A model generated the notes under the pieces. That model was not told the origin of the DNA and ran no database searches. It was given only the letters and a program-made list of their open reading frames with translations. The position numbers and the translations under genes were made by a program. 22,625 bases of DNA, taken from positions 1-22,625 of IMG/VR virus record IMGVR_UViG_3300009441_000054; one strand, given 5' to 3'. The first letter of the stretch is position 1; every line of letters starts with the position of its first letter. Positions 1 through 17,067 of the stretch are shown here, piece after piece. The stretch is from a virus.

Positions 1-223
1 CGGTTAGTTCTTTTTTACGGTTACCTTTATAGGCAGGGTAAATATCTTTTCGGAAGTTACCCTTACCTTTAATAGCTATCTTACCTGTACTGCCCTCCAG
101 ATCACCCATAATACTTGAGATAGTCTGGTCTAGTTTTTTCTTAATATCTTTAGTGGTATTAGCACCCCAGATAGATTGATAGACTAAGATGTCTCCATCT
201 ATGTATACATTAATACTCATCAT
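1..223 (-). CDS. 5'-3' exonuclease (FLAP/T7 gp6-like), N-terminal part only
   Basis: Partial gene running off the left edge; about 74 residues are readable. The protein begins (M)MSINVYIDGDILVYQS, matching the first metal-binding aspartate strand of the FLAP/PIN exonucleases (T7 gp6, T4 RNase H, Pol I 5' nuclease). It continues to KGKGNFRKDIYPAYKGNRKK, the 'FR..IYP.YK.NR' signature of phage 5'-3' exonucleases. In T7 this enzyme removes RNA primers and degrades host DNA. Two in-frame ATGs lie side by side (223 and 220) after an AGAGGA ribosome site, and either could be used. The gene overlaps the end of the preceding membrane peptide. Its position after polymerase and glutaredoxin fits a replication operon. 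The family call is from motif recognition; the C-terminal metal ligands are outside the window. Confidence 0.85.
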   Translation of the reverse strand, partial: MMSINVYIDGDILVYQSIWGANTTKDIKKKLDQTISSIMGDLEGSTGKIAIKGKGNFRKDIYPAYKGNRKKELT

Positions 224-4101: not shown

Positions 4102-4248
4102 TTACTTACCTTCTTTGTTTAGAGGTCTAGCGAAGCGGTTAGCCCAGAGAACCTGAGCCAACTGCGTTACGTAGTATTCGCTATTGTAATCCGGAAGGAT
4201 CCATGCAGGACCATTCCGAGTAGTAATTTTAATAAGCTGTTCTGACAT
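4102..4248 (-). CDS. 48-residue hypothetical protein
   Basis: Small soluble protein beginning MSEQLIKITTRNGPAWILPD. It has a beta-rich N-terminus and a helical C-terminus (VTQLAQVLWANRFARPL). It starts at a one-base TAATG overlap with the SSB gene and stops within the ribosome-site region of the next gene, which supports it as real. No family recognised. Confidence 0.65.
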   Translation of the reverse strand: MSEQLIKITTRNGPAWILPDYNSEYYVTQLAQVLWANRFARPLNKEGK

Positions 4249-4673
4249 TAGAAGTCCTCGCCAGCACCATCGTAGCTAGTATAGTCAGTGATCTGCAATG
4301 CAACAAGCATAGCGGAGGTGCCTTGTTTACCTGCCATCTCCCAGTCATAGGAGAATAACTTGATATGACCCTTGGATCCGTTACCCATAGCTTTAATTTT
4401 ACTTGGGGCCATCTCCTCTTTATCAGTGTCAACAACCTTGGGTGGCTCGTTAGATTCTCCATTAGCTTTGATTGCTTTACGCTTAATGTTAGCATAGAAA
4501 CCATCGTTACCTGACTTCATCTTGACGCCAGCAGATTCTAGTTGAGCCTTAGTTGCCTCGTTGCTTGTGACTACTTGGATATCCCACTGTAGTGTACCGA
4601 AAGGAGAGTGCTTGTCAACTAACTTAGGCCAGTTGAATGTTACGTCACGTACTACGATTACTTGATTAGCCAT
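4248..4673 (-). CDS. single-stranded DNA binding protein 1 (T7 gp2.5-like)
   Basis: 141 residues, the size expected of a T7 gp2.5-type OB-fold SSB. Near the N-terminus is VTFNWPKLVD, then QWDIQVVTSNE, the central basic segment FYANIKRKAIK, the conserved GNGSKGHIKL, and a C-terminus ending DGAGEDF. An acidic tail ending in Phe is the hallmark of gp2.5 and lets the SSB contact polymerase and helicase. The protein should coat single-stranded DNA during replication and recombination. A second, divergent copy lies at 11755-12213. The SSB assignment is strong at motif level. Confidence 0.85.
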   Translation of the reverse strand: MANQVIVVRDVTFNWPKLVDKHSPFGTLQWDIQVVTSNEATKAQLESAGVKMKSGNDGFYANIKRKAIKANGESNEPPKVVDTDKEEMAPSKIKAMGNGSKGHIKLFSYDWEMAGKQGTSAMLVALQITDYTSYDGAGEDF

Positions 4674-4690
4674 TATATTTATTCCTTATG

Positions 4691-4888
4691 TTAATGGATT
4701 GTAATTACATCCGAGTATAGTTCAACCATCAGTTGTGCTACTATCTCAGATATATTGTCGTTATCAATCACATGATTGACTTCCAGGTTAAACAACTCAG
4801 TATAAAGAAGAGTTGTATCGTCTTCCAGAACCTCCCAGCTTACTGGGAAGTCCCTATGATAGTGTAGAGATAGTATTTTATGATTCAT
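4691..4888 (-). CDS. 65-residue hypothetical protein
   Basis: Begins MNHKILSLHYHRDFPVSWEV and is acidic with alternating strands and helices (ISEIVAQLMVELYSDVITIH). No membrane segment and no recognised motif. Its first 11 bases overlap the end of the DUF3310 gene, and it ends 17 bases before the SSB start. It is accepted as real because it fits the compact operon. Confidence 0.65.
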   Translation of the reverse strand: MNHKILSLHYHRDFPVSWEVLEDDTTLLYTELFNLEVNHVIDNDNISEIVAQLMVELYSDVITIH

Positions 4889-5297
4889 TCTCTTGCTCTA
4901 TCACTTTAACAAGATAGTTAGCATACCACTGAATCTTCTTGGCATCCTGTAGCTTGTCGTCTTTCTTACCTAGTCGGGTACTGTATTTAAATACTTGACC
5001 GAGGAGGTGAGATGTCACACCAGTATGATGAGCTAGTAAGTACTGCATTAAGTCCATGTACTCTAGTCCATCAGGATAGTTACCTGGTGGTATTACTTTG
5101 TAATGAGCAGGATTAATTACGCTGTCTTGGTTAGCGGCATCCATGTTTTTAAAGTTACCGTGGAACTTTGATTCTTTTTGTATATCACGTTGTGATTCAA
5201 GATCACGATCCAGGTTTATTAGGTATTCTGTTAGTCTTTCTTTCTCAGCTGTTGACTTAGCGTGAGCGAGTTTACCTAGTATTTCATTACGTGTCAT
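4878..5297 (-). CDS. DUF3310 protein (T7 gp1.7-like)
   Basis: 139 residues. The N-terminal 50 are helical and charged. From about residue 58 it carries the DUF3310 pattern: DSVINPAHYK (59-68), LEYMDLMQYLL, HLLGQVFKYSTRLGKKDD (98-115) and DAKKIQWYANYLVKVI. In T7, gp1.7 carries this domain and acts as a nucleotide kinase for dGMP and dTMP. Many other phages carry the domain alone with no known activity, so kinase function is only suggested. The gene is the first after the promoter-like motif at 5330-5351 and shares its 17-base leader with DNA polymerase. Confidence 0.85.
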   Translation of the reverse strand: MTRNEILGKLAHAKSTAEKERLTEYLINLDRDLESQRDIQKESKFHGNFKNMDAANQDSVINPAHYKVIPPGNYPDGLEYMDLMQYLLAHHTGVTSHLLGQVFKYSTRLGKKDDKLQDAKKIQWYANYLVKVIEQENES

Positions 5298-5298
5298 G

Positions 5299-5315
5299 GT
5301 GTTTCCTTAAGTTGT
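5299..5315 (-). promoter_or_regulatory. shared leader with ribosome site, upstream of DUF3310 gene
   Basis: Identical to the 17 bases before DNA polymerase (2677-2693), one base before the ATG, containing TTAAGG and the CTTAAG palindrome. It lies inside the transcript predicted to start from the motif at 5330-5351. Confidence 0.6.
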
Positions 5316-5329
5316 GGGGAAAATAACGT

Positions 5330-5351
5330 TCCCTTTTAATAATGGACTATA
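5330..5351 (-). promoter_or_regulatory. candidate phage promoter, leftward copy 2
   Basis: On the minus strand this reads TATAGTCCATTATTAAAAGG followed by GA. It differs at two positions from the copy at 10816-10837. It overlaps the stop codon of the 325-residue gene and points toward the DUF3310/SSB/polymerase block. Just after it, GGGAA and TTCCC can form a short stem, like the 5' hairpin of many T7-type transcripts. Promoter function is inferred from repetition, position and orientation. Confidence 0.6.
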
Positions 5352-6324
5352 GATTTAGTGACTTAATCATAGCCGCTTTTTGTCTACGCTTCATAGTACT
5401 CTCTGCTCTCATAGCATTACTACCAATAGCTTGGTGTTGTTTGTCAGCAGACACAGATAACACTACATCTTTAACTCTAAATAGCTTACGGGTATGCTTG
5501 TTAGCTATATTGCGATAGTAACGTTCTCCGTTAGCAAGTAATCTTTCTTCACGATTACCCTGTATTTGTACAATTATAATGTCATACAAGGTTTTCTCAG
5601 TATCCTCCTCTATTTTGTTAGCTTGTGTGGTGAAGGCATGGGTTCCTTCGTACTCAAGTATAGCTAAGCCTCTATCAAATACATCTTCAACCCACTGTTT
5701 ACCTACAATTATTTCTGGTGTGGTTGCAATGCCCCCACTATTACCTATTACTTTTCTTATTTGGTGAACAAAGCCCTTACTGTTAGGTCTATCTTCTTCG
5801 TTTATATATTTAAGGTTAAATAGATCACATACACCTAAATCTCTGTTCAACCTATTGTTAGACATAGCTATACTGTCATTAATTTTTGTTACGTCTTTAG
5901 TTTCTTCTGTTTCAGATAGTTTGTACTCAATATATTTTTCTTTCTTAGCTATCTGAAGTACAGTGTTAGTAAGTAATCTGGATAACTCTCCTTTTATACA
6001 ACCAATGTCATTGTGATTGTAGACATCTATATCTGCAGTAGCATAGTAACCTCTTCGTTGGTAGCTCCAACCATAATCACGGGTTAGTTCTAAGTTACCT
6101 AAGGTTTCTAGCTGACTCGTTACGGTAGTGCATTCACAGTTTTCTTTGAATACCTTTTCTACCCCCGCCTTTATACTCTGATAGGCAAGGTCAATATCAG
6201 ATACATCTAGGTCACTTACTGTAAGATTAAAGAAACGCACTAACTTACCGTGTAAGTAAGCCTGACGATATATTGTTGATTCATCTGCGCCTGCTACTGC
6301 TATGTCTTGATGATTATTAAACAT
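5347..6324 (-). CDS. 325-residue protein of unknown function, partner position to the VWA/MoxR pair
   Basis: No family recognised. It begins MFNNHQDIAVAGADESTIYR and is soluble and mixed alpha/beta. Aromatic patches are seen near residues 83-93 (DYGWSYQRRGYY), and the C-terminal third is strongly basic (residues from about 265, ending STMKRRQKAAMIKSLNL), which could bind nucleic acid. It starts 14 bases after the VWA metallopeptidase-like gene and is in its operon, so the two may act together. It ends at the promoter-like motif at 5330. Codon use matches its neighbours. Confidence 0.85.
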   Translation of the reverse strand: MFNNHQDIAVAGADESTIYRQAYLHGKLVRFFNLTVSDLDVSDIDLAYQSIKAGVEKVFKENCECTTVTSQLETLGNLELTRDYGWSYQRRGYYATADIDVYNHNDIGCIKGELSRLLTNTVLQIAKKEKYIEYKLSETEETKDVTKINDSIAMSNNRLNRDLGVCDLFNLKYINEEDRPNSKGFVHQIRKVIGNSGGIATTPEIIVGKQWVEDVFDRGLAILEYEGTHAFTTQANKIEEDTEKTLYDIIIVQIQGNREERLLANGERYYRNIANKHTRKLFRVKDVVLSVSADKQHQAIGSNAMRAESTMKRRQKAAMIKSLNL

Positions 6325-6338
6325 GACTTTCTCTTTCT

Positions 6339-7448
6339 TTAAAGTTCTACGTGTACTAATGTACCGTAAGGGTTATCTTTAGCTTGCGTTGAGAGCCATA
6401 CTACAGGCAACTCAGGTTCTTCAGGCCACGACCAGAATTCGCAGTCAGAAAAACATAGTAAGGTTTCTGTTTCAGGTAAACACTCTGTAACGTACTTGAA
6501 ACCAGGATTCATATCAGTACCACCACCTCCTTTCAGTTCTAGTTCTGTTATATCATCATAGGGTGTAAAGCTATGACAGATAGCTACATCAGTATCAACA
6601 CAGATAACGTTGATAGACTCAGGTTGCATACTCTCGTTGATAGACTGTAGTTCTGCTAAGAATATTTCTCTTTCTTCTTTACTTACAGAAGCAGAGGTGT
6701 CTATTACTACAGCGATAGGTCCTAACGCATTAGATACCATTGAAGGTAAGTACAAGTCTAACGCAGATAACATCTTACGATTAGGTCTAGCCCAAGAGTA
6801 GTCTTCGGGTTTCTTACTCATAAGGTGTGTACGTAGAAAGGCCCGCCAATTAACTTTAGGTGTACCTACGTTCTTAACAAGCTCTTCAATGCTACCATGC
6901 ATAGTCTGCCCTGCTTTCTTAGCAGCATCAGCAGCAGAGGCTATCATCTCATTGACATCATCAATAGCCTTGTCTTTAGCGTCGCCAGTAATAGGGTTAC
7001 CCTCTTCGTCAGACAGCTCCATTACATAACCCCACTCAGGGTCCTCATAGTAGTTATCTTTAATCTCATCATATACTTTCTCTGCATTTTTATTACGGTG
7101 ATCAGCATCTAACAAGGCACCTTCAGGTAACTTGAATCCATCTTGTGTTAATGTTTCATTGATAGAAAAGTCTGTAGCAATGTTCCATTTCTTGTGTGAT
7201 CTATCTTTAATTCGGAGGTGATGTAACAGTACTACGTGCATTACTTCATGTGCCAGTACCCCCATTACCTCCTCTTCAGACCACTTATCTACAGCTACAC
7301 GACCCCAGAAGATAGACCTGCCATCTGTAGCCATAGTATTAGTGTTAGGGTCTTCACGTATGTTTAACCTTAACGCACAAGAGCCATAGAAGGCATACTT
7401 GCTTACAAGTTTTATTAAGGCTCTGCTTACTTTCAGTTGAGCTTCCAT
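6339..7448 (-). CDS. VWA/metallopeptidase-like protein (DUF2201 type)
   Basis: 369 residues in two parts. The N-terminal domain has a zinc-protease-type HEVMH at residues 67-71, followed by WNIATDFSINETL (88-100), where the third metal ligand would be expected. The C-terminal domain is von Willebrand A-like. It has the MIDAS motif DTSAS at 250-254, GGGGTDMNPG at 307-316 with Thr311, and the strand LLCFSDCEF with Asp335. This architecture is known from bacterial proteins paired with MoxR-type AAA+ ATPases. Such pairs are thought to remodel or mature protein complexes. The matching ATPase is encoded upstream at 9480-10505. Whether the zinc site is catalytic cannot be judged here. Confidence 0.88.
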   Translation of the reverse strand: MEAQLKVSRALIKLVSKYAFYGSCALRLNIREDPNTNTMATDGRSIFWGRVAVDKWSEEEVMGVLAHEVMHVVLLHHLRIKDRSHKKWNIATDFSINETLTQDGFKLPEGALLDADHRNKNAEKVYDEIKDNYYEDPEWGYVMELSDEEGNPITGDAKDKAIDDVNEMIASAADAAKKAGQTMHGSIEELVKNVGTPKVNWRAFLRTHLMSKKPEDYSWARPNRKMLSALDLYLPSMVSNALGPIAVVIDTSASVSKEEREIFLAELQSINESMQPESINVICVDTDVAICHSFTPYDDITELELKGGGGTDMNPGFKYVTECLPETETLLCFSDCEFWSWPEEPELPVVWLSTQAKDNPYGTLVHVEL

Positions 7449-7452
7449 TGTA

Positions 7453-7656
7453 TCACACTTTCATTCTGATTTTCATTAATGTATAGAGTTCAGACTCAGT
7501 TGGTTCGAGATCTAGCTCCTCCATACGTGAGAGTATTATCTGATTAGCCCATTCCATTTCCTCTTCTGGTAGTTCGCCTTGTAACTCTTCGCGGTAGTAT
7601 ATAGTCTCACCGATCATATAGTCTAAGGCTACGGATATAATGTCTTTAGGTTTCAA
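7453..7656 (-). CDS. hypothetical acidic protein, probable TTG start
   Basis: About 67 residues, helical and acidic (GELPEEEMEWANQIILSRME), no motif recognised. The reading frame opens earlier with GTG at 7662, but that codon abuts the strong ribosome site AAGGAGGT (7661-7668) and cannot be served by it. The in-frame TTG at 7654-7656 lies five bases after the GGAGG core, so I place the start there. The 5' end overlaps the preceding gene by 11 bases (17 if GTG were used). It ends five bases before the VWA gene. Confidence 0.7.
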   Translation of the reverse strand: MKPKDIISVALDYMIGETIYYREELQGELPEEEMEWANQIILSRMEELDLEPTESELYTLMKIRMKV

Positions 7657-7837
7657 GTACACCTCCTTGTCTAAGTTTTATTTTAAGGGTAGCTAAGTTT
7701 AACAGGTCCCCGTGATTACCGTCAGGATAATCTGACCTGAGTCGATAGTACTCTTCAAGTACTAACTTTTCTCTCTGTCTTTCTTTATACTCTGCTAGTC
7801 TGATAGGGTCTTTATCAACGTCTTTAAAGTTACTCAT
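7646..7837 (-). CDS. 63-residue charged hypothetical protein
   Basis: Begins MSNFKDVDKDPIRLAEYKER. Highly charged and helical, with no membrane segment. It ends inside the start region of the next gene, and its 3' end supplies that gene's ribosome site. Only one base separates it from the stop of the preceding gene. No family recognised. Confidence 0.65.
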   Translation of the reverse strand: MSNFKDVDKDPIRLAEYKERQREKLVLEEYYRLRSDYPDGNHGDLLNLATLKIKLRQGGVLET

Positions 7838-7838
7838 G

Positions 7839-8081
7839 TTACCACTCCGGTTTGTTAAGAAGGTCTCTTACTTTAGCACGAAGCCTTTCTGATTTATCGA
7901 AAGGACGAATGTCATTTTGTTCTACTACAATGCCTGTGTTATAGCGCTTAGCATGTAACTCAGCAAGGTTTTTATTATCAAAGATAATGGGTTTGGATTC
8001 GTAAGTAAAAGGATTCTCTGCACTTGAGTACATCATCTCTCCTTCTTCTACCTCAAACATTACTAAGTAAGATTTAGTCAT
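7839..8081 (-). CDS. 80-residue hypothetical protein
   Basis: Begins MTKSYLVMFEVEEGEMMYSS. Predicted to be a small alpha/beta protein with a C-terminal basic helix (KSERLRAKVRDLLNKPEW). The frame stays open ten codons further upstream, but the ATG at 8081 has a GGGAGAGA ribosome site at good spacing and overlaps the preceding stop by eight bases, so I prefer it. No family recognised. Confidence 0.65.
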   Translation of the reverse strand: MTKSYLVMFEVEEGEMMYSSAENPFTYESKPIIFDNKNLAELHAKRYNTGIVVEQNDIRPFDKSERLRAKVRDLLNKPEW

Positions 8082-8253
8082 CTGTCTCTCCCAATATGTT
8101 TTTAAACACATAGTCTAATTTTGTTTCTGTAGCACCACAGTACAGCAGTAGCTTAAGCCCTAACTCTTGGGCTAATTCTGTTGTTTTCTCGTCAAGATCA
8201 AAGACGCAGGTAAAATTACCATCTTCATTCTCATTTAATTCTAAGACTTTCAT
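8074..8253 (-). CDS. 59-residue hypothetical protein
   Basis: Begins MKVLELNENEDGNFTCVFDL. Acidic, with strand-rich N-terminal and helical C-terminal parts (KTTELAQELGLKLLLYCG). An in-frame ATG exists six codons upstream at 8271, but the GAGGTAGGA ribosome site lies between the two and favours the start at 8253. It overlaps the next gene by eight bases. No family recognised. Confidence 0.65.
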   Translation of the reverse strand: MKVLELNENEDGNFTCVFDLDEKTTELAQELGLKLLLYCGATETKLDYVFKNILGETDD

Positions 8254-8267
8254 TGTTCCTACCTCAT

Positions 8268-8405
8268 TCATGACATTTTACCACAAAAAGAGCAAGGGTG
8301 GCTTTCGCCATCATCTGTTTCTGGCCCTTGATCGTTGCACCAGCAACATGGCTCATCATATTCCTCTATCTCTGTTACTTTGATGGACTTGTTTACATCA
8401 GTCAT
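8268..8405 (-). CDS. 45-residue zinc-ribbon-like protein
   Basis: Short protein with two CxxC knuckles, C20-C-W-C23 and C38-S-F-C41, separated by an acidic loop (NDQGPETDDGESHP). This is the layout of a zinc ribbon that could bind nucleic acid or a protein partner. It overlaps the gene upstream by eight bases and ends 14 bases before the chosen start of the next gene. Too short for the family to be named, but the spacing of the four cysteines is unlikely to be chance. Confidence 0.7.
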   Translation of the reverse strand: MTDVNKSIKVTEIEEYDEPCCWCNDQGPETDDGESHPCSFCGKMS

Positions 8406-8553
8406 TATCTATCTCCTTATTATGTTTACGAAACCTTTTATTGTAAGCACGTTTAATCTTCTTTACCTGACCTGCCTTCCACAAGTGAAATTTACGGGCT
8501 TTAGTGAGAGCATCATACTCATCTCCGCCTTTCATTGGTATACGTTTATTCAT
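8398..8553 (-). CDS. 51-residue basic protein
   Basis: Begins MNKRIPMKGGDEYDALTKAR and is very rich in Lys and Arg in its second half (VKKIKRAYNKRFRKHNKE). It probably binds nucleic acid or a negatively charged partner. A GAAAGGTAAC ribosome site precedes the ATG. I have seen similar short 'KGGDEYD.LT.A' proteins in other phages, but I know no function for them. It overlaps the zinc-ribbon gene by eight bases. Confidence 0.7.
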   Translation of the reverse strand: MNKRIPMKGGDEYDALTKARKFHLWKAGQVKKIKRAYNKRFRKHNKEIDND

Positions 8554-8572
8554 TAGTTACCTTTCTTTTTAA

Positions 8573-8860
8573 CTAGTAGTTTTCTAGTTCGTTATAATCA
8601 GTTACTTCTATTAGTTGTCCTTTTAATTCTTCAACTTCAACCCACCAGGTTATACGATCAGGGTAGCCCCCGATACGTTCAGCTACACTTGAAACAACAT
8701 TCATCATGTCTCTTACTTGAGAAGCAGACATGTGGTATTGAGGCGAGTCTGGTACCTTGTAGTAGTCTTTGTTTTCAGGATTCAGCATTTCTTGGGCGTT
8801 ATCAAGGTTATCCATGTCCATGAGATAGAAGCTACGTATCTTAGCTTTACGATAATACAT
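8573..8860 (-). CDS. 95-residue hypothetical protein
   Basis: Begins MYYRKAKIRSFYLMDMDNLD. Soluble, with a helical middle (SASQVRDMMNVVSSVAERIG) and a strand-like segment RITWWVEVEEL near the C-terminus. No motif recognised. Its ATG forms a TAATG overlap with the stop of the 25-codon ORF upstream, so they are translationally linked. Confidence 0.7.
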   Translation of the reverse strand: MYYRKAKIRSFYLMDMDNLDNAQEMLNPENKDYYKVPDSPQYHMSASQVRDMMNVVSSVAERIGGYPDRITWWVEVEELKGQLIEVTDYNELENY

Positions 8861-8937
8861 TACTTGTTTTCCTTTTCTTTGTGTTCAGCATTAGCTATTC
8901 TTATATCAAGGAATAGTTGTTCTAGTTTACTTAGCAT
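8860..8937 (-). CDS. 25-residue micro-ORF
   Basis: Encodes MLSKLEQLFLDIRIANAEHK followed by EKENK, a single amphipathic, charged helix. It overlaps the upstream gene by 11 bases and the downstream one by a TAATG. It may be a genuine micro-protein, or mainly a coupling device that carries ribosomes from one gene to the next. Confidence 0.45.
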   Translation of the reverse strand: MLSKLEQLFLDIRIANAEHKEKENK

Positions 8938-9148
8938 TAGGGCTACTCCAATCAACAAAGAAACCACCAACAGTATTTTTAGTTAGCTTATAGCCCTTCT
9001 CAGTCAAGTCTAGTTGTTCTGTTGTTGTCAGCTCTATATCAAAGTATACACCAGTTCTGGCATTAAGACAAGCAGTGAGGATAAACTCTTTAATACGTTT
9101 ATTACGATGCATGTTAGACGAGGATAAGGCTTCTCTGGCAGTCAACAT
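8927..9148 (-). CDS. 73-residue hypothetical protein
   Basis: Begins MLTAREALSSSNMHRNKRIK. It has an N-terminal basic helix and a C-terminal strand-rich region (GVYFDIELTTTEQLDLTEKG, then GGFFVDWS) that looks like a small alpha/beta fold. No family recognised. It is the first gene after the hairpin at 9178-9201. Confidence 0.65.
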   Translation of the reverse strand: MLTAREALSSSNMHRNKRIKEFILTACLNARTGVYFDIELTTTEQLDLTEKGYKLTKNTVGGFFVDWSSPNAK

Positions 9149-9177
9149 TTTATTATTCCTGTATAATAAGGGTTAAT

Positions 9178-9201
9178 AAGGAGAGCAGGATTGCCCTCCT
9201 T
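9178..9201. terminator. strong hairpin between small genes; terminator-like on the plus strand
   Basis: AAGGAGAGCA and TGCCCTCCTT pair over ten positions (one G-U on one strand) around the loop GGAT. On the plus strand it is followed directly by GTTTTT, a textbook intrinsic terminator. On the minus strand, the coding strand here, no T-run follows, so there it may only slow RNA polymerase or serve as a processing site. A plus-strand terminator here would stop antisense transcription entering the ATPase gene. Confidence 0.6.
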
Positions 9202-9239
9202 GTTTTTAATAAGATTATATGTACGTATTTGACACCCAC

Positions 9240-9464
9240 TTATACGTGCACAACCTTATGGTTGCTTCTAAGTTTAACTCCTTTGAGGACAAACTTAGCT
9301 ATCACCTTATCTTTCGCGGTTTTAGCAGTAACACTAGAGATATTGATGGTGTTCAGCAGTTCATCTCTGAGTTTAACAAAGTCTTTGGGATGGAAAACAG
9401 TAGTAACATAGTTCTCTGTCTTGTCAGAGATTTCATATACTTTTATTGCATTAGTAGATAACAT
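9240..9464 (-). CDS. 74-residue hypothetical protein
   Basis: Begins MLSTNAIKVYEISDKTENYV. A lysine-rich, probably alpha/beta small protein (AKDKVIAKFVLKGVKLRSNH). No motif recognised. It lies 15 bases downstream of the MoxR-like ATPase gene, with a CCTTTC-type ribosome site between, and ends ahead of the hairpin at 9178-9201. Confidence 0.6.
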   Translation of the reverse strand: MLSTNAIKVYEISDKTENYVTTVFHPKDFVKLRDELLNTINISSVTAKTAKDKVIAKFVLKGVKLRSNHKVVHV

Positions 9465-9479
9465 ACTTATTCCTTTCTA

Positions 9480-10505
9480 TCACAACAACAAGGCTTTACC
9501 TTCAGACATAAACCATGCTGTAATGTGTTTATCTGCTTTAAGTTTAGGGTTCCTCTGTAGAGCATCTCTGATGGTGAAGGCAGCAAACTCTTTGTTAGGT
9601 AGACTTGTTAGGTACTCAACAAAGACTCTACTGGTCTTGGGTGTAACAAGGTTAGCTAGGGCTGCACACAGAGCATACAACACAGTGGACTCCTCGGGCA
9701 CAGTAGTAACACTACCTTGTAACACTTCATTGGGATCAGGCATCTTATCAGCTACCTTTAAGTACCCTAAGAAGTCTGCCTTGCAAGCCTCACCTACTTG
9801 ACCTTTAATAGCCTCATTTCTTAGTTTGTAAGGCAGATTCATCTTAATTAAGGTATCTACTCTCATCCAACCTCTGGGTGAGGCACAGGAATCCACAGCA
9901 GGATCAAAGGTAGACAATTGACTCGGTCTATTACGTAGATAACCTAAGATATACTGATGTAGACCTTTGCTATTACCGTAGGCTAAGAACTCTGTTACAT
10001 CTTCCATAACCTCAAAGAAAGTTACTCGATCTTTAAAGTGAGAAGGAAGAGGGTTAGTACCTGCTCGGTGTTGCATCTGATTACCAGCACAAACAATAAC
10101 AACATTATCATTTAATTTATGCTCACCTAACTTCCTCTCATTAACTAACATAGATAATACATTAACGTTAGCTGTGGGAGCCTGTGATATCTCATCATAG
10201 AATAAGATAACAGGTTTATCTGTTGGTGTATCTAACCAGAAGGGTTTAGCTCTGGTATAAATACCTTGTTCCTTATCTAAGATAGGATAACCTGCTATCT
10301 CACCTGCATCATAGGAGGCTAGTGGTATAGTGAGAAGGTGATAGTCATTCTCCTTGGCTATCTGTTCTACAATACTGGTCTTACCAATACCAGGCTTGGA
10401 TACCAACATGGGTACAATATTCCTACCAAAGTCCTTAGTATCATTGTTGGTAAGATTGTACTTAAGGATGGCTGCTACTACTTCTTTACATTCATTGATA
10501 TTCAT
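9480..10505 (-). CDS. MoxR-type AAA+ ATPase
   Basis: 341 residues. Walker A is KPGIGKTS at 37-44; the first Gly of the classic GxxxxGKT is Ser36. Walker B is VILFYDE at 99-105 with Asp104 and Glu105, sensor 1 is CAGNQ around Asn142, and a likely arginine finger follows at FKDR160. The loop IAGYPILDKEQGIYTRAKPFW between Walker A and B is typical of MoxR-class ATPases. These work with VWA-domain partners to remodel or insert cofactors into protein complexes. The expected partner is the VWA/HExxH protein at 6339-7448 in the same direction. Phage N4 and relatives carry a comparable ATPase/VWA pair, from memory. Its leader holds the hairpin described at 10511-10527. Confidence 0.9.
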   Translation of the reverse strand: MNINECKEVVAAILKYNLTNNDTKDFGRNIVPMLVSKPGIGKTSIVEQIAKENDYHLLTIPLASYDAGEIAGYPILDKEQGIYTRAKPFWLDTPTDKPVILFYDEISQAPTANVNVLSMLVNERKLGEHKLNDNVVIVCAGNQMQHRAGTNPLPSHFKDRVTFFEVMEDVTEFLAYGNSKGLHQYILGYLRNRPSQLSTFDPAVDSCASPRGWMRVDTLIKMNLPYKLRNEAIKGQVGEACKADFLGYLKVADKMPDPNEVLQGSVTTVPEESTVLYALCAALANLVTPKTSRVFVEYLTSLPNKEFAAFTIRDALQRNPKLKADKHITAWFMSEGKALLL

Positions 10506-10510
10506 TGTGT

Positions 10511-10527
10511 ATATCCTTTCAAGATAT
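10511..10527 (-). promoter_or_regulatory. ribosome-site hairpin before the MoxR-like gene
   Basis: Minus strand ATATC, seven bases, GATAT. The AAAGGA ribosome site begins in the loop and ends in the 3' arm. Related leaders occur at 11683-11699 and 12218-12232, each followed by (A)TACAATG or ACACAATG. Confidence 0.5.
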
Positions 10528-10536
10528 GTTGGTTAG

Positions 10537-10734
10537 TTATACTTCTTCACCTTGTTGTGTTAACCTCGGTACACAGTAATAATAGTAAGTGTAATCTCCT
10601 GTATCAAAGAGATAGTCTTCCAGTATATTACTGTTAAGTCTGGTTATACAGTCTTCCATAGTACCTTCATACTCATAGTCTACATCTTGTATAGCACCTA
10701 GATGTAATGTGACTACTATCATGATTGTTAGCAT
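10537..10734 (-). CDS. 65-residue hypothetical protein
   Basis: Begins MLTIMIVVTLHLGAIQDVDY. The hydrophobic N-terminus (residues 2-13) is short for a membrane span and could be a weak signal or a buried strand. The remainder is acidic and tyrosine-rich (DYTYYYYCVP). It is the first gene after the promoter-like motif at 10816-10837. No family recognised. Confidence 0.6.
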   Translation of the reverse strand: MLTIMIVVTLHLGAIQDVDYEYEGTMEDCITRLNSNILEDYLFDTGDYTYYYYCVPRLTQQGEEV

Positions 10735-10815
10735 AGTATATCTTTCTTTGTTGTTACTCTAAGTATACTTATATAATATATATAATATATAACCTAAAGG
10801 GGAGGGAAGGGATTC

Positions 10816-10837
10816 TCCCTTTTAATAGGGGACTATA
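10816..10837 (-). promoter_or_regulatory. candidate phage promoter, leftward copy 1
   Basis: On the minus strand this reads TATAGTCCCCTATTAAAAGG followed by GA. The first 20 bases are identical to the rightward copy at 12828-12848. It runs directly into GGGAGAATCCC, which can fold into a small GGGA/TCCC stem and would make a 5' GGGAGA transcript like T7 class promoters. An AT-rich, gene-free leader of about 80 bases follows before the next start codon. Confidence 0.65.
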
Positions 10838-10861
10838 CTTTCTCAATTTTAGTCATCGCTG

Positions 10862-11071
10862 TCAACGATGTTCTAGTCTGTACGTAGTTAGTATGACCTT
10901 GGTAGTCTTTCGTACAATAACACAGATACCTTTATGGTAGTATCTCAGTTGACCTCCATACAACTTAGATTTGTATTCTTTGCCTAAGGTTACAGCATCA
11001 CTTATTTCTTCCAAAGTAATACCTCTGGTATCCGCTCGTTCACAGGCATGCTCTGACATAGCGTAACGCAT
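10862..11071 (-). CDS. DUF4258 protein
   Basis: 69 residues, matching the DUF4258 pattern. It has an N-terminal helix with His and Arg (MSEHACERADTRGITLEEIS), a conserved turn after 'RGI', then strands LRYYHKGICVIVRK and KVILTTYR. The family is related in fold to the RelE/BECR toxins and is often found as small stand-alone genes of unknown activity. The first Met is preferred because GGGGGT lies upstream at suitable spacing, whereas the Met at residue 5 has no ribosome site. The ATG shares one base with the upstream stop (TAATG). No antitoxin gene is recognisable beside it. Confidence 0.75.
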   Translation of the reverse strand: MRYAMSEHACERADTRGITLEEISDAVTLGKEYKSKLYGGQLRYYHKGICVIVRKTTKVILTTYRLEHR

Positions 11072-11253
11072 TACTTGATACCCCCTATTGAGTATACCTT
11101 AGTATCTCCCTCCATGCTTATATCGCAATAGTAATTCTGGTTATTAGTCAGAATACGTTCGATTAGCATGTTGGCTGTCTTTACGCTTGTACCTGTGTTG
11201 GTTGTACTGTAGAGATAGCCTGAGTTGTCATGGCATCTGATTTCATGTTTCAT
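11071..11253 (-). CDS. 60-residue hypothetical protein
   Basis: Begins MKHEIRCHDNSGYLYSTTNT and reads as a small strand-helix-strand protein (VKTANMLIERILTNNQ, then YYCDISMEGDTKVYSIGG). No family recognised. It is coupled to the DUF4258 gene by TAATG, which makes it a candidate partner or antitoxin by position only. It is the first gene after the structured region 11254-11472. Confidence 0.6.
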   Translation of the reverse strand: MKHEIRCHDNSGYLYSTTNTGTSVKTANMLIERILTNNQNYYCDISMEGDTKVYSIGGIK

Positions 11254-11472
11254 CTTATTACTTTCTGTGTTGTGGTTCAGTTATTACAAGGACAACCCGG
11301 ATAAACCCTCAGGTTTCGTTCCTTCCGGTTTACCCCTGGTATACTCTGATGTATAGGAGGAAATCCTCCAGTTACATTCCAATACACCCTGGTTGCCCTT
11401 TAATGTTTTGTTTACAGGGTTATCCTTAAGGTTTTTATCAAGGACAACCCTGCAAGGTTCTTACCATTCTAG
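11254..11472. other. 219-base gene-free region rich in hairpins
   Basis: No ORF of useful length on either strand. It holds a long imperfect hairpin, CAGGGTTATCCTT (11415-11427) against AAGGACAACCCTG (11440-11452), with 12 of 13 pairs. A GGAGG-AAAT-CCTCC hairpin lies near 11357-11370. Another pairing is possible between GATAAACC (near 11299) and GGTTTACC (near 11329). The element AAGGACAACCC occurs twice, near 11288 and 11440. It may be a structured 5' leader, an RNA-processing region or a small RNA. Confidence 0.6.
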
Positions 11473-11679
11473 TTACCTTCCGATTAACCTGTGATTATCC
11501 TCATCCATGTAAAGTTCACCCATCATTTCCTCCGCAGAGTATTCGATGACATCATAGTGACCATCATGTACTGACAGTACCTGCACAACGTAGTGCTCAT
11601 CATCTGATAAGGCTACCTGTACATAATCTCCTACTGCATACTGTTTAGCCGTAGGTAAGTCTTTCCATTCTCTAATCAT
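11473..11679 (-). CDS. 68-residue hypothetical protein
   Basis: Begins MIREWKDLPTAKQYAVGDYV. The middle (VGDYVQVALSDDEHYVVQVL) has the look of a small beta-barrel (SH3/Tudor-like), with an acidic C-terminus. This is a loose impression, not a family assignment. The gene has the AAAGGATATACAATG leader shared with its neighbours and is followed by the long hairpin at 11415-11452. Confidence 0.65.
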   Translation of the reverse strand: MIREWKDLPTAKQYAVGDYVQVALSDDEHYVVQVLSVHDGHYDVIEYSAEEMMGELYMDEDNHRLIGR

Positions 11680-11682
11680 TGT

Positions 11683-11699
11683 ATATCCTTTCTAGATAT
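11683..11699 (-). promoter_or_regulatory. ribosome-site hairpin, copy 2
   Basis: Minus strand ATATC/GATAT arms around a seven-base loop (six pairs if flanking T/A are included). The GAAAGGA ribosome site spans loop and 3' arm. Same design as 10511-10527. Confidence 0.5.
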
Positions 11700-11724
11700 A
11701 TAGCCCGTAAGTGGACATGAATGC

Positions 11725-11741
11725 CCTCCCATTACAGGAGG
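11725..11741. terminator. intercistronic hairpin after SSB 2
   Basis: CCTCC and GGAGG pair around a seven-base loop, just downstream of the SSB 2 stop. No T-run follows on either strand, so it is a weak terminator at best. It could be an mRNA processing or stabilising hairpin. Confidence 0.4.
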
Positions 11742-11754
11742 ACATGTAGTCAAC

Positions 11755-12213
11755 TTAGAAGTCGAAGTTATCTTCATAAGTAGTAGGCTCTGCAATGAAC
11801 TCTACTAGTGCCTTCAACTTAATAGCCTCAAGACAAACGTAAGGACGACCTGTCTTAGGGTGTTGCTTGTGAGAGATCTTGATGTCACCACGAGAACCAT
11901 TACCTATAGTTCTACGTACTGCAACATCCATAGCCATACCATCTTCCCACACGATAGCAGGTGCTCCTAAGAAAGAAGGACGCTTGAGTGTGAAAGAAGT
12001 AACGCCTTCGCTAACAATATTAATGTTAGGCATTATACCATACCAAGCTGCTGCTTGCTCTGCGTTATCTGTGGCTATCTGTAGCTCATACTGTGGTTTC
12101 CCACCATTATAGCCTGCCACTGGCGTTACAATCTTAACCCAGTTAAGTTGTACATCAGCCAATACAGAAGCTGCGCCATCACGAGTGTTACGTGTTTCTA
12201 CGAAGTTAGTCAT
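11755..12213 (-). CDS. single-stranded DNA binding protein 2 (T7 gp2.5-like)
   Basis: 152 residues from the ATG at 12213, chosen over an upstream in-frame ATG because AAAGGA lies seven bases before it. It shares the layout of SSB 1: VQLNWVKIV (VTFNWPKLV in SSB 1), PQYELQIATDN (QWDIQVVTSN), GNGSRGDIKI (GNGSKGHIKL), and an acidic tail ending EDNFDF. Overall similarity is low apart from these blocks, so the two are old paralogues or separately acquired. It should bind single-stranded DNA. It is the second gene of the leftward arm, far upstream of the rest of the replication genes, so it may act early or have a different partner. Confidence 0.75.
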   Translation of the reverse strand: MTNFVETRNTRDGAASVLADVQLNWVKIVTPVAGYNGGKPQYELQIATDNAEQAAAWYGIMPNINIVSEGVTSFTLKRPSFLGAPAIVWEDGMAMDVAVRRTIGNGSRGDIKISHKQHPKTGRPYVCLEAIKLKALVEFIAEPTTYEDNFDF

Positions 12214-12217
12214 TGTG

Positions 12218-12232
12218 TATCCTTTCAGGATA
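12218..12232 (-). promoter_or_regulatory. ribosome-site hairpin, copy 3
   Basis: Minus strand TATCC/GGATA arms around a five-base loop, containing GAAAGGA, directly before the start of SSB 2. Same leader type as 10511-10527 and 11683-11699. Confidence 0.5.
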
Positions 12233-12275
12233 TAAGGTATCTGCCTCATCAGTGCATGGAGATAAGCCCATACAG

Positions 12276-12289
12276 ACGCCCTAAGGCGT
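12276..12289. terminator. intercistronic hairpin after the first leftward gene
   Basis: ACGCC-CTAA-GGCGT, a perfect five-pair stem with four-base loop, extendable by GCC/GGC outside. There is no T-run on either side, so processing or attenuation is as likely as termination. Confidence 0.4.
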
Positions 12290-12294
12290 TTCGG

Positions 12295-12465
12295 CTATAA
12301 AGTAGTGCCAGACATAGCGTAAGCTACTACCCAGATACAGTAGAACAGTACCATAATACAGAATGCGGTTGCCCCCATAATTATCGCTGTCCAAGCTATA
12401 TCAAGGAGGTTCTCCAGGTTACGCATACGGTTATCCTGGCGTTTACGTAGTTCGGTTCTAGTCAT
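12295..12465 (-). CDS. 56-residue single-span membrane protein
   Basis: First gene of the leftward arm. A basic N-terminus (MTRTELRKRQDNRMRNLENL) precedes one long hydrophobic segment (AWTAIIMGATAFCIMVLFYC, extending to VVAYA), so the protein should span the inner membrane once with its N-terminus in the cytoplasm. The start at 12465 is chosen for the GAAAGGA ribosome site; an ORF extension to 12507 has none. As the first gene transcribed leftward it may be expressed early. No family recognised. Confidence 0.65.
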   Translation of the reverse strand: MTRTELRKRQDNRMRNLENLLDIAWTAIIMGATAFCIMVLFYCIWVVAYAMSGTTL

Positions 12466-12671
12466 TGTTTTTCCTTTCAGAGTTGTGTTAGGAGTGTCTT
12501 GTGACAAACCAAGAAGAGACGCAGCCGGGAGGAAGCCACGCCCCTACTAAGAATGTCAAGTAAAAGAATCAAGCAAAGCCTAGGACGACTTCGCAAGTAA
12601 AGGGGGGTACACATGTTAAATAATAGGTAACCTTATATATAATTAATATTTTCCATCCACACAAGAGACCT

Positions 12672-12693
12672 AACCAACGTACAACCAACGTAC
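12672..12693. repeat. 11-bp tandem repeat AACCAACGTAC x2
   Basis: Two exact head-to-tail copies, one helical turn each, followed by a partial third (AATCTAC). The period places the repeats on the same face of the DNA, as in protein-binding iterons. It lies in the divergent control region. Confidence 0.7.
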
Positions 12694-12711
12694 AATCTAC
12701 AAAAAACAATA

Positions 12712-12740
12712 CCCCCTATCCCAGTACAACCCCCTATCCC
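12712..12740. repeat. CCCCCTATCCC direct repeat, two copies 18 bp apart
   Basis: Exact copies at 12712-12722 and 12730-12740. The core CCCCTAT is also inside the promoter-like motif at 12828-12848, which suggests a shared recognition element. Confidence 0.6.
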
Positions 12741-12827
12741 CCAGAGGTTTTTCCTCCCATAAAAGTAAAATCTTTGGATCCAAAAATTATTTTTATTTTT
12801 TGAGGGCAATATAACGCCTTCGGCGTG

Positions 12828-12848
12828 TATAGTCCCCTATTAAAAGGA
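12828..12848 (+). promoter_or_regulatory. candidate phage promoter, rightward copy
   Basis: Plus strand TATAGTCCCCTATTAAAAGG followed by A, with its first 20 bases identical to the leftward copy at 10816-10837. It stands 51 bases ahead of the first rightward gene, just after a small GC hairpin. Here the motif leads into GGATTTTTTT rather than GGGA, and no 5' hairpin follows. Confidence 0.65.
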
Positions 12849-12899
12849 TTTTTTTACACAAGTTGGACTCAGAGAGTTAACTATAGAAGGATAGCTGTA

Positions 12900-13094
12900 A
12901 TGAATATTAAAGGACATGTTAATAAGTGGGCAGAGGTACTTCGAAAGAGAAGTAATATGAATGCTACTATTAAAGAGATGCACATGTTGACTGATGCTGA
13001 ACTCAATGATATCGGGATTAATCGAGGTGAAATCGAGAATATTGCAAGAGGTATTATTGATTTCCACAGGAATGTGCGGGACTCTGATAAATAA
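12900..13094 (+). CDS. DUF1127 protein
   Basis: 64 residues, first gene of the rightward arm. After a basic N-terminal helix (HVNKWAEVLRKRSNMNATIK) comes MHMLTDAELNDIGINRGEIE, which matches the DUF1127 core 'L..L.D.EL.DIGI.R..I'. In bacteria these small proteins are common in alpha- and gammaproteobacteria, and some affect RNA turnover and phosphate or carbon metabolism. A phage copy could alter host RNA handling. The start is placed at 12900 because AGAAGGA precedes it; the frame is open upstream without a ribosome site. Confidence 0.8.
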   Translation: MNIKGHVNKWAEVLRKRSNMNATIKEMHMLTDAELNDIGINRGEIENIARGIIDFHRNVRDSDK

Positions 13095-13106
13095 AAGGAA
13101 GTAAAA

Positions 13107-13529
13107 ATGTTTGGATTACCACTAGAATTGATCACCATGTTGTTTTCTACCATACTTGGTGGCGTAATGTCTATGTGGGGTCAAAGCAATAAGCATAAAG
13201 CAGAACATCAAAGGGCACTTGTTGGTGCTGTAAGTCAGGCAAGGGAACACGGTAAGACCGATATTCACTTTGCTTGGACAAGAAGAATTATAGCTCTCTC
13301 TGCAGTAGGCTCTATTATTGTGTTACCAAAGCTTGTAGCTGTTTGGTATCCGGAAATAAGTGTTGTTGTAGGTTATACTGAGATGCAAGGTGGTTTCTTC
13401 GATTGGATTTTCAACACACAAGAATCAATTCAGTGGAAGTCAGCCTACGGGTTTGTAATTACTCCACTTGACACACATATAGTCTCGGCCATTGTAGGTC
13501 TGTACTTTGGCGCGGGGTTCACTAAATGA
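13107..13529 (+). CDS. membrane protein, candidate holin
   Basis: 140 residues with an N-terminal hydrophobic segment (PLELITMLFSTILGGVMSMW), a charged cytoplasmic-looking region (NKHKAEHQRALVGAVSQARE), a second span (IIALSAVGSIIVLPKLVAVW) and a C-terminal one (HIVSAIVGLYFGAGF). Three spans, small size and place among other membrane genes suggest a holin of the three-span type, though another inner-membrane role is possible. Its stop overlaps the next gene's start by four bases (ATGA). Confidence 0.7.
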   Translation: MFGLPLELITMLFSTILGGVMSMWGQSNKHKAEHQRALVGAVSQAREHGKTDIHFAWTRRIIALSAVGSIIVLPKLVAVWYPEISVVVGYTEMQGGFFDWIFNTQESIQWKSAYGFVITPLDTHIVSAIVGLYFGAGFTK

Positions 13530-14498: not shown

Positions 14499-14849
14499 AT
14501 GGATAATATTAAATTACCTATAGCTTTAGTGTTAGCAATGGCCGCACAGCTTGCCGGGGGTGTATGGTGGGTTTCTCAACAATCCGCAACAATTAATAGT
14601 TTGGAAGAAACAGTAAGTCAACTTGGTTCTAAAATGGCTATTGAAGAAAATGTTAATCTACGCAGAGATGTTGAAGATGCCCTAGATGAATTAGAACATG
14701 TTTGGGTAGAACTGGAAGAGATGTGGGAAGAAAACGCTAGTCTAGCTAGTAGCATATCTCATATTACTAAGTTACAACAAAGAGTAGCTCTGTTAGAAAG
14801 TGAAGTTAGATTCATGAGTAGAGATTACAATAATGTAATGGGTAAGTAA
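14499..14849 (+). CDS. membrane-anchored coiled-coil protein B
   Basis: 116 residues. The N-terminal span (KLPIALVLAMAAQLAGGVWW, residues 5-24) is followed by a long acidic coiled coil (residues about 30-110). The span pattern (L/I)P(I/V)...LA..Q.A..VW(W/F)(V/I) repeats that of the protein at 13526-13801, so the two look like diverged duplicates. An inner-membrane location with the coil in the periplasm is likely by charge. Possible roles are a lysis accessory or an envelope-interacting protein. Confidence 0.7.
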   Translation: MDNIKLPIALVLAMAAQLAGGVWWVSQQSATINSLEETVSQLGSKMAIEENVNLRRDVEDALDELEHVWVELEEMWEENASLASSISHITKLQQRVALLESEVRFMSRDYNNVMGK

Positions 14850-14860
14850 GGAGATAAAGT

Positions 14861-15115
14861 ATGGCAGGAGATCCGAATAAAGGTAAGGCTAAAGTAAAAG
14901 TCACGGCAAGTGGCAAGAGAGTTAGCTACGGACAGGCGGGTACGGCTAAAAATGGAAGTAAAAGAGTACAGCCTAGCAGCAAAAAGGGAGATGCTTACTG
15001 TGCCAGATCCGCTGGACAGAAAAAGCGCTCCCCTGCTGCAGCCAAAGACCCTAACAGCCCCCTGAATCTGAGTCGTAAAAGATGGAAGTGTTCAGGAACT
15101 AAATCTAAGAGGTAA
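14861..15115 (+). CDS. basic protein, DUF6321-like
   Basis: 84 residues, very rich in Lys, Ser and Gly. The C-terminal half has the recognisable pattern KKGDAYCARSAGQKKRS, then DPNSPLNLSRKRWKC, which I know from phages as DUF6321 (from memory). Two cysteines, in YCAR and WKCSG, may bind a metal or form a disulfide. Its strong positive charge suggests binding to DNA or RNA. It has an AAGGAG ribosome site and lies just upstream of the structured region before the terminase. Confidence 0.75.
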   Translation: MAGDPNKGKAKVKVTASGKRVSYGQAGTAKNGSKRVQPSSKKGDAYCARSAGQKKRSPAAAKDPNSPLNLSRKRWKCSGTKSKR

Positions 15116-15118
15116 ACT

Positions 15119-15184
15119 ATGGCTACCACTAAAACAAAGAAAATAGCGAAATTCCTTAGGGGTAAAATGGACAACCCCCGGTGA
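15119..15184 (+). CDS. 21-residue basic ORF, possibly a truncated gene
   Basis: ATG at 15119, three bases after the previous stop, reading MATTKTKKIAKFLRGKMDNP and then Arg before TGA. A TAAGAGG ribosome site precedes it. Phages often have a longer gene starting 'MATTK..KKIAK' at this place, with a second half that is absent here. It may be a micro-protein, a leader peptide for the structured region that follows, or the remnant of a longer gene. Confidence 0.4.
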   Translation: MATTKTKKIAKFLRGKMDNPR

Positions 15185-15402
15185 CCCGATGGTAGTGACG
15201 GGGAGGATACACTACCACTAATTCGTGAGTAATACTCTCACACAAGCAATACCACTCGCGAACACGTCGTTCTGCAGCAACGGAAGTTTCGCTACCTTAG
15301 GAACCGTTGGTTAAAAATCAACAGGTTAGTCGTTGCACCGGGTGGGTGTCAGGCCTCGGGGTGTCAGGTAAAACTGTACCCCGAGTCCAACCAGGAAACA
15401 TT
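15185..15402 (+). other. 218-base hairpin-rich region upstream of the terminase gene
   Basis: No ORF of useful size. Visible stems: TGGTAGTG (15190-15197) with CACTACCA (15210-15217), eight pairs; GTGAG/CTCAC at 15225-15241; CAACGG (15278-15283) with CCGTTG (15304-15309), competing with GTTGGT/ATCAAC near 15306-15322; and CTCGGGGT (15355-15362) with ACCCCGAG (15378-15385), eight pairs with an inner CAG/CTG. GGGTGTCAGG is repeated directly near 15344 and 15359. It is more GC-rich than its surroundings. It could be a structured RNA, a packaging signal, or both. Confidence 0.6.
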
Positions 15403-17067
15403 ATGGATAATCAGAAGAAGGAAGCTAGAGCACAGTTGGAAGCTCTAAGAGAACTTAAGAGAAGAAAGAGTCTTGAAGATTACTCTGATGACTTTGAAAA
15501 GTTCTCACAAGAACAGATTAGAATTATCACTAAAGACGCTACCAAAGGTTTTGTGCCTTTCGAATTTAACGAAGCACAGGTTATTATTAATGCAGCGTTA
15601 GAGAAACAAAGAAAAGAAACAGGTAAAGTTAGAGCTATTATTTTAAAAGCTCGACAACAAGGTATCTCTACCTTCTGTGCAGGGAGAGTGTTTTGGAAGA
15701 CTTACTTTCAGCAACACACCAGATCTGTAGTGATGGCACATGATAGTGCTACCTCAGATTCTCTTTTCTCGATGAGTAAGAATCTTATCAAGAACATGGA
15801 AAAAGGGTTACAACCTAAATTAGAAAAAACGAACGCAAAAGAAATTGCGATTCAAACCCCAGCTTACACCGATCCAGAAGCCGTAGGCTCTTATCGTTTG
15901 TACACAGCAGGGTCACCGGAAGCGGGACGAGGAACTACCCCCACTATCTTACACGCATCAGAAGTTGCATTCTGGCAACATGATGCCAAGATCTTAGCGG
16001 GATTGTTTCAAGGTATTTCCCAGTCTGACGGTACAGAAGTTATTATTGAGTCCACAGCTAACGGGGCTTCCGGAGAGTTCTACCGTCTATATCAGGCGGC
16101 AGCAGCGGGGGAGTCCGACTATGTGGCTATCTTTATTCCGTGGTTTAAAACCGCAGAGTATAAAAGAGATATTCCAGAAGAATTTGAATTAACCTTTGAA
16201 GAAAAAGATTATAAAGAAAAGTATGAGTTAACAGACGAACAGATCTACTGGAGGCGACTTAAGATCGTTGAAGGTGGTGTAGACAAGTTTAGACAAGAGT
16301 ATCCTGCTAACGCAGAGGAAGCTTTCCTGGTGTCTGGTTCTTCTGTATTTAATCCTGAAAAGATCAACTCATTTTTACCAGTACAACCAGTAGCTCTACG
16401 CTTGTATAACGAAGAGCTAGGTTCTTTTGATGACAGTCCTCGTGGTAACCTGGAAATATGGATACCACCTGATTGGAAAGACAACTACATCATTGGGGCA
16501 GACGTTGCCCTGGGGGTTAAACAAGACTACAGTACTGCTATTGTGTTAAATACTCAAGGTCACATTTGTGCCATGTATAGAGACAACACAGTAGATCCTA
16601 CTCTTTATGGTGAACACTTGTTTTACCTAGGTCGTTACTTTAACAACGCACTGATGGCAGTGGAGTCTAACAGTATGGGTGTCGCTACCCTACAAAGACT
16701 CAAGCAGATGAACTACGTTAACATGTACTACGAAACTAAAGCAGCTAAACTCAGCTCTGAGGAAGGTCAAACACCTGGCTTCAGAATGACACATGGCAGT
16801 AAGCCTCGAGTGATTGGACAGCTTAAACATGCTGTTGAAGAAGAAGACATTTGGATTCCCTCTAAGACTATCTTGTCAGAGATGAAAACTTATATCTCTA
16901 CTTCTTCAGGTAAAACAGAAGCTATTCAAGGTAGAAATGATGACACAGTTATGGCACTGGCTATCGCCTGGGAAGCTTATCGTACTAATATTGATAAGCT
17001 GGCTAACAATAAAGTTGACTGGAGGCAAAAGAATTTTGTCAACCGGAATAATGAGGAATGGATTTAA
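15403..17067 (+). CDS. terL: terminase large subunit
   Basis: 554 residues. The ATPase domain has a deviant Walker A, KARQQGIST (82-90), Walker B ILHASE (182-187) and the coupling motif ESTAN (216-220). The RNase H-like nuclease domain has IIGADVALG with Asp367, AVESNSMG with Glu421 and RNDDTVMALA with Asp513/514. These are the usual acidic residues for cutting concatemeric DNA. It packages DNA into the prohead through the portal. The frame is open back to 15307, but those codons lie in the hairpin-rich region; the ATG at 15403 has AGGAAAC before it and starts where conservation-like sequence begins. Its stop overlaps the next gene's ATG (TAATG). Confidence 0.95.
   Translation: MDNQKKEARAQLEALRELKRRKSLEDYSDDFEKFSQEQIRIITKDATKGFVPFEFNEAQVIINAALEKQRKETGKVRAIILKARQQGISTFCAGRVFWKTYFQQHTRSVVMAHDSATSDSLFSMSKNLIKNMEKGLQPKLEKTNAKEIAIQTPAYTDPEAVGSYRLYTAGSPEAGRGTTPTILHASEVAFWQHDAKILAGLFQGISQSDGTEVIIESTANGASGEFYRLYQAAAAGESDYVAIFIPWFKTAEYKRDIPEEFELTFEEKDYKEKYELTDEQIYWRRLKIVEGGVDKFRQEYPANAEEAFLVSGSSVFNPEKINSFLPVQPVALRLYNEELGSFDDSPRGNLEIWIPPDWKDNYIIGADVALGVKQDYSTAIVLNTQGHICAMYRDNTVDPTLYGEHLFYLGRYFNNALMAVESNSMGVATLQRLKQMNYVNMYYETKAAKLSSEEGQTPGFRMTHGSKPRVIGQLKHAVEEEDIWIPSKTILSEMKTYISTSSGKTEAIQGRNDDTVMALAIAWEAYRTNIDKLANNKVDWRQKNFVNRNNEEWI

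Follow-up and report, generated by a model that had tools for sequence, protein, structure and literature searches.

A 20-bp motif standing in front of three operons of a viral DNA fragment is very probably, judging by sequence comparison, a promoter recognised by a T7-like single-subunit RNA polymerase (RNAP) that the phage itself encodes. The window, meaning the whole stretch of DNA analysed, comprises the 22,625 bases of an IMG/VR virus record. The initial annotation had read the motif as the promoter of a phage-encoded single-subunit polymerase, and this reading is supported by further copies in related genomes, by the RNAP gene of the closest sequenced phage and by a motif that changes from one phage lineage to the next.

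The source phage and the expected location of its RNAP gene

Roseobacter phage CRP-7 (MK613349.1), a podovirus of 58 kb from the RCA lineage of marine roseobacters, is the sole near match among phage records and aligns with 37% of the window at ~79% nucleotide identity; by sequence, the window is a fragment of a CRP-7 relative. The minus strand of CRP-7 corresponds to the plus strand of the window, and the two have in common the genome type, a tRNA-Arg and the order of the early and replication genes. A gp28 exonuclease homologue is cut by the left window edge, leaving its N-terminal 74 codons (2..223, minus strand). In CRP-7, gp28 (12231) is followed by a primase and by gp30 (14792; CDS 14792-17251), annotated as a T7-like RNA polymerase, so that by synteny the RNAP gene of the window's phage would be expected to start ~2.3 kb beyond the left edge. 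Because the gene lies outside, a PF00940 profile search of the window gave no match, which agrees with the earlier statement that the window lacks it. The paper on CRP-7 describes the RNAP, calls its relationship to the T7 group distant (<25%) and does not contain the word "promoter" (PMC6918029).

The motif in the window

Three putative phage-RNAP promoters are present in the window. Two are exact copies of TATAGTCCCCTATTAAAAGG, namely the "gp06/07" copy (10818..10837, minus strand) and the late copy (12828..12847, plus strand), and the third, the middle "gp17" copy (5332..5351, minus strand), reads TATAGTCCATTATTAAAAGG and differs from TATAGTCCCCTATTAAAAGG by two changes. The initial annotation had counted the same two exact copies and one changed copy; its sites were right, and their ends were up to 2 bases off, GGGA having been included. 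No fourth copy was found in the whole 22,625-base stretch at up to 6 mismatches, and 100 dinucleotide shuffles produced no match with up to 3 mismatches allowed. A functionless recent duplication or a chance repeat would agree with two of the copies being identical, but chance expectation in the shuffles is zero and the motif is retained at five separate places across contigs with differing flanks, which makes this explanation close to negligible.

Every copy lies on the same strand as the next open reading frame (ORF) and points into the downstream genes, as had been claimed. The 5332 copy is ~35 nt ahead of the ORF 4878-5297 (minus strand), heads genes gp17-gp19 and the DNA polymerase operon, and shares bases with the stop codon of the ORF before it (5347-6324). 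The 10818 copy, ~84 nt ahead of the ORF 10537-10734 (minus strand), heads a MoxR-ATPase/VWA/replication operon, and the 12828 copy, ~53 nt ahead of the ATG at 12901 (plus strand), heads the terminase/portal/capsid operon.

Several other elements were seen in the window. A Type II hammerhead ribozyme (Rfam RF02276, 42.9 bits) lies in the early region at 12235-12296 (minus strand), where it would, by its position, cut the early transcript just ahead of the gene starting near 12213; the early region of CRP-7 has one as well (L004, 570-633, plus strand), as do contigs L196, L216 and L185. Positions 11270-11480 (minus strand), also in the early region, are non-coding and predicted to fold into a multi-hairpin RNA (-81.8 kcal/mol, z -7.3, with 0 of 200 shuffles as good) that matches no Rfam family; the 3' hairpin part is ~87% conserved in CRP-7 and other relatives, and the segment is a candidate for an unknown structured RNA. 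A stretch of ~290 nt before the terminase gene (15116-15405) is mostly non-coding, and its predicted fold is fairly stable (z -2.3). The ORFs 4248-4673 and 11755-12249 (both minus strand) are apparent counterparts of CRP-7 gp19 and gp02, and since both match one lineage-3 protein, gp19 and gp02 look like paralogues.

Conservation in CRP-7 and its relatives

The initial annotation had proposed looking in the rest of the genome for further copies and for a T7-like RNAP gene, and both are found in the closest sequenced genome: CRP-7 encodes the polymerase (gp30), and copies lie upstream of other operons there and in its relatives. With up to 6 mismatches allowed, the 58 kb of CRP-7 contain exactly five copies, at 2025(+), 7146(+), 14763(+), 38262(-) and 57212(-), and when its intergenic DNA was searched blindly for repeated 18-mers, the motif came back as the only five-copy family. 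The 14763(+) copy ends 9 bp short of the start codon of the gp30 RNAP. In the window, the 10818, 5332 and 12828 copies are homologous to those at 2025-2044(+), 7146-7165(+) and 57212-57231(-) of CRP-7, respectively, the last being upstream of gp71.

Relatives were taken as contigs that have the DNA polymerase, RNAP or terminase in common, together with motif-bearing contigs. About 80 of 109 distinct sites (up to 5 mismatches) lie upstream of the same five genes and are oriented into the gene. These conserved positions are gp06/gp07, gp17, gp30 (RNAP), gp46 (ribonucleotide reductase) and gp71, three of which are in the window, and the motif is ~10-170 nt from the gene (10-11 nt before the start at the gp30 RNAP). 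Position-wise alignment of related sites shows the 20 bp as a sharply bounded, near-invariant island between variable flanks, seen in 8 related sites for the gp06/07 copy and 10 for the late gp71 copy, while the AT variant of the gp17 copy is kept in 20 of 20. In all phages sampled, CCATTATT is always present at the gp17 and RNAP copies and CCC[CT]TATT at the other three, a class difference that suggests two promoter strengths, as in T7 class II and class III.

The full motif was matched 3 times in a 257-Gb collection of bacterial and archaeal genomes; these matches are isolated, lie in metagenome-assembled genomes and were taken as chance. The motif matches on unrelated IMG/VR contigs (35 of 112 loci) mostly look like chance too, as expected from a 17-base pattern in a collection of that size, those in lineage-4 phages excepted.

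A Group I intron (Rfam, 79.2 bits) is located in CRP-7 (L004) at 36986-37196 (minus strand), between the ribonucleotide reductase coding sequences gp44 and gp46, which are therefore probably one split gene.

The RNA polymerase

CRP-7 (gp30) and some 40 related contigs encode a T7-like RNAP, and the RNAP of the group matches PF00940 with E=5e-59. Identity to T7 RNAP is ~23% over aligned residues, which agrees with the <25% given in the CRP-7 paper (PMC6918029), and the equivalents of T7 D537, K631, Y639 and D812 are conserved in all four lineages (in IDG, in SKRATMTRAY for K and Y, and in HDSF). The specificity-hairpin region is ~10 residues longer than that of T7, the insertion being present in lineages 1 and 2. 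All 35 positions of this region are invariant in 17 lineage-1 RNAPs, compared with 73.6% overall, and 19 of the 35 are identical between lineages 1 and 2; as 16 of 785 RNAP windows are equally invariant, the constancy of the loop taken alone is weak support. Base contacts through T7 positions 746, 748, 756 and 758 were dropped from the analysis, since the 10-residue insertion makes the alignment of the loop to T7 ambiguous (it can be shifted by 3 residues) and residues cannot be assigned to bases; a T3-like D748 is a possible reading of the sequence but not a defensible one. An AlphaFold model of the RNAP, built with 21 relatives, had a mean pLDDT of 48 and was too poor for use.

A Group I intron (96.6 bits) splits the T7-like RNAP gene of one lineage-3 phage near its catalytic DG motif (L309, 4085-4291, plus strand).

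Four lineages with four motifs

The RNAPs of three distant lineages are ~45% (lineage 2), ~40% (lineage 3) and ~37% (lineage 4) identical to that of CRP-7 (range 36-47%), and those of lineages 3 and 4 are 50-52% identical to each other. These lineages do not have the CRP-7 motif and carry motifs of their own, TATAGATCCCTTATAGGG, TATCCGTCCCTTATAGGG and, in lineage 4, TCTAAGTTCCTTATAGGG, at homologous or equivalent positions. The CRP-7 motif, with mismatches allowed, gives chance-level matches only in lineage 2, where inspection of the DNA upstream of the gp17 and gp46 homologues revealed TATAGATCCCTTATAGG. It is directly upstream of the gp17 homologue in four contigs, the same place as that of the window's 5332 copy, and of the ribonucleotide reductase gene in a fifth, and its sites include two single-base variants. 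The lineage-3 motif, TATCCGTCCCTTATAG[GA]G, stands before the terminase, before the portal and in the divergent early/late region. That of lineage 4, TCTAAGTTCCTTATAG[GA]G, has exactly five sites in each of 5 genomes of 57-60 kb at up to 2 mismatches, reversed-pattern controls gave no sites, and the RNAP is present in these genomes. A TYCCYTAT-type core is common to all four motifs (CCC[CT] promoters in the CRP-7 lineage), and the main differences lie just upstream of it.

The motifs are lineage-specific, stand at homologous sites where they can be compared, and change with the RNAP, and this divergence in parallel is best explained, at the sequence level, through recognition by the RNAP. Several directional copies before operons would also be expected if the host RNAP used the motif as a middle or late promoter with a phage-encoded sigma factor or activator. 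This is very unlikely: the motif has neither -35/-10 geometry nor a sigma-70-like site, forms a strict contiguous 20-bp block through GG, and changes by lineage in step with RNAP divergence, and the T7-like RNAPs in these genomes would otherwise be left without promoters. In lineages 2 and 3 no motif copy was seen directly before the RNAP gene, so autoregulation of that gene is not universal.

In lineage-4 contigs (L162, 4957-5054; L089, L093, L139, L166 and L169), an orphan CRP-7-type promoter occurs exactly 79 bp upstream of the phage's own promoter, beside a gene like CRP-7 gp49. It is probably a recombination scar between phages of different RNAP specificity.

Start site and leader hairpins

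The initial annotation had described, for the two minus-strand copies, GGGA followed by a small hairpin, like the start of T7-type transcripts. The hairpin is supported for both of them (GGGAGAATCCC and GGGAACGTTATTTTCCC) and does not extend to all copies. The leader after the 10818 promoter begins with GGGAGAATCCCTTCCCTCCC (10800..10819, minus strand) and that after the 5332 promoter with GGGAACGTTATTTTCCCC (5312..5333, minus strand), each with a predicted 5'-terminal hairpin. When 30-nt leaders were folded across the relatives, stable hairpins were predicted for almost every gp46 leader (reaching -15 kcal/mol in CRP-7) and for the gp06/07 leaders, and for about two thirds of the gp17 leaders (most leader types), while at gp30 and gp71 the hairpin is absent or weak. 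The hairpin is a property of some leaders and does not belong to the promoter.

These leaders also bear on the reading of the motif as an element for protein binding or replication, such as an operator or origin, or as a leader element acting as RNA. T7-like promoters may also act as replication origins, and a hairpin does follow several copies. Such an element is nevertheless extremely unlikely, given that copies are always oriented into a gene ~10-170 nt away, that gp30 and gp71 have little or no hairpin, and that conservation starts 18 bp before GG and stops there, upstream of most of the hairpin. The promoter reading also leads to the question of where transcripts begin. In lineages 2-4, CCTTATA is followed by GGG or GAG, like TATA|GGG in T7, and the core-aligned CRP-7 lineage has CCYTATT|AAAAGG. 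In view of CCTTATA|GGG in the three other lineages, sequence gives a start in the AAAA run roughly the same likelihood as the GGGA/GGAT start first proposed. Two As of AAAA pair with TT in the hairpin predicted for several gp46 leaders, which fits a start in the AAAA run but is no proof of it.

From the TCCCYTAT core to GG, the CRP-7 lineage is ~3-4 bp longer than the others, which have TCCCTTATA|GGG or TTCCTTATA|GGG. The lineage may have gained a spacer and, if the distance from core to active site is fixed, would start with A (5'-AAAAGGGAG...), possibly with slippage, unlike its GGG-starting relatives; we offer this tentatively, as a reading that falls slightly short of being an even call. 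If true, promoter sequence, spacing and specificity hairpin would have changed in concert across the four lineages, which would form a natural series.

Relation to known systems

The kind of system is known, namely a T7-type RNAP with dedicated promoters, and the several near-identical, contiguous, correctly oriented motif copies found here, one per transcription unit, agree with the 17-23 bp promoters of such systems. The T7/T3 systems of the Autographiviridae are alike in their single-subunit RNAP with catalytic aspartates, lysine and tyrosine, in one short contiguous promoter per operon with two sub-types (class II/III), in a promoter made of an AT-rich block, a GC-containing middle and an AT-rich melting region followed by GGGA, and in the hairpin at the start of some leaders. 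They differ in promoter sequence, and here there are only five promoters per genome. T7 gene 1 follows a host-type promoter, whereas here the RNAP gene ends the replication operon under its own promoter, and the specificity hairpin of lineages 1 and 2 is longer than in T7.

The T3 promoter is AATTAACCCTCACTAAAGGGAGA. The core of the T7 promoter is TAATACGACTCACTATAGGGAGA (PMC3950665). By inspection, only GGGA and scattered bases are common to the motif and either TAATACGACTCACTATAGGGAGA or AATTAACCCTCACTAAAGGGAGA, in keeping with the earlier remark that the motif does not match the T7 promoter. The marine cyanophage Syn5 also has a single-subunit RNAP and a short dedicated promoter, which is 15 bp long and has been used with GGG after it (PMC3950665), but its promoter sequence, ATTGGGCACCCGTAA, is different and it belongs to a different phage group. 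Neither motif variant was found in any paper of the open-access literature searched, and the promoter specificities of the CRP-7-type RNAP group appear undescribed.

A model of transcription and its implications

In the model proposed, the host RNAP would transcribe the early region flanked by the two divergent promoters (~12.8-10.8 kb, minus strand), and read-through from there would extend to the far end of the replication operon, where the RNAP gene lies. A sigma-70 scan of 10400-13300 for host promoters gave fewer sites than shuffles. The phage RNAP would then recognise the 20-bp motif at about five places, its targets being the MoxR/VWA operon, the gp17/DNA polymerase operon, the ribonucleotide reductase and the oppositely oriented structural operon, and each unit would be transcribed as a middle or late operon. 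In lineage 1 a fifth promoter, before the RNAP's own gene, would give positive feedback. The comparison itself shows the motif copies with their placement, orientation and conservation, the RNAP gene with its catalytic motifs intact in relatives, and the divergence of motif and RNAP between lineages; that this RNAP recognises the motif, where exactly transcripts start and how the units are timed is what we infer from it.

The promoters would supply the missing regulatory map for a widespread and barely characterised group, the ~58-kb marine podoviruses. The four predicted phage RNAP/promoter pairs may also be of use in synthetic biology. As a set of natural variants, they would further help in studying how a single-subunit RNAP can shift its specificity together with that of its promoters, about five of them being kept in step.
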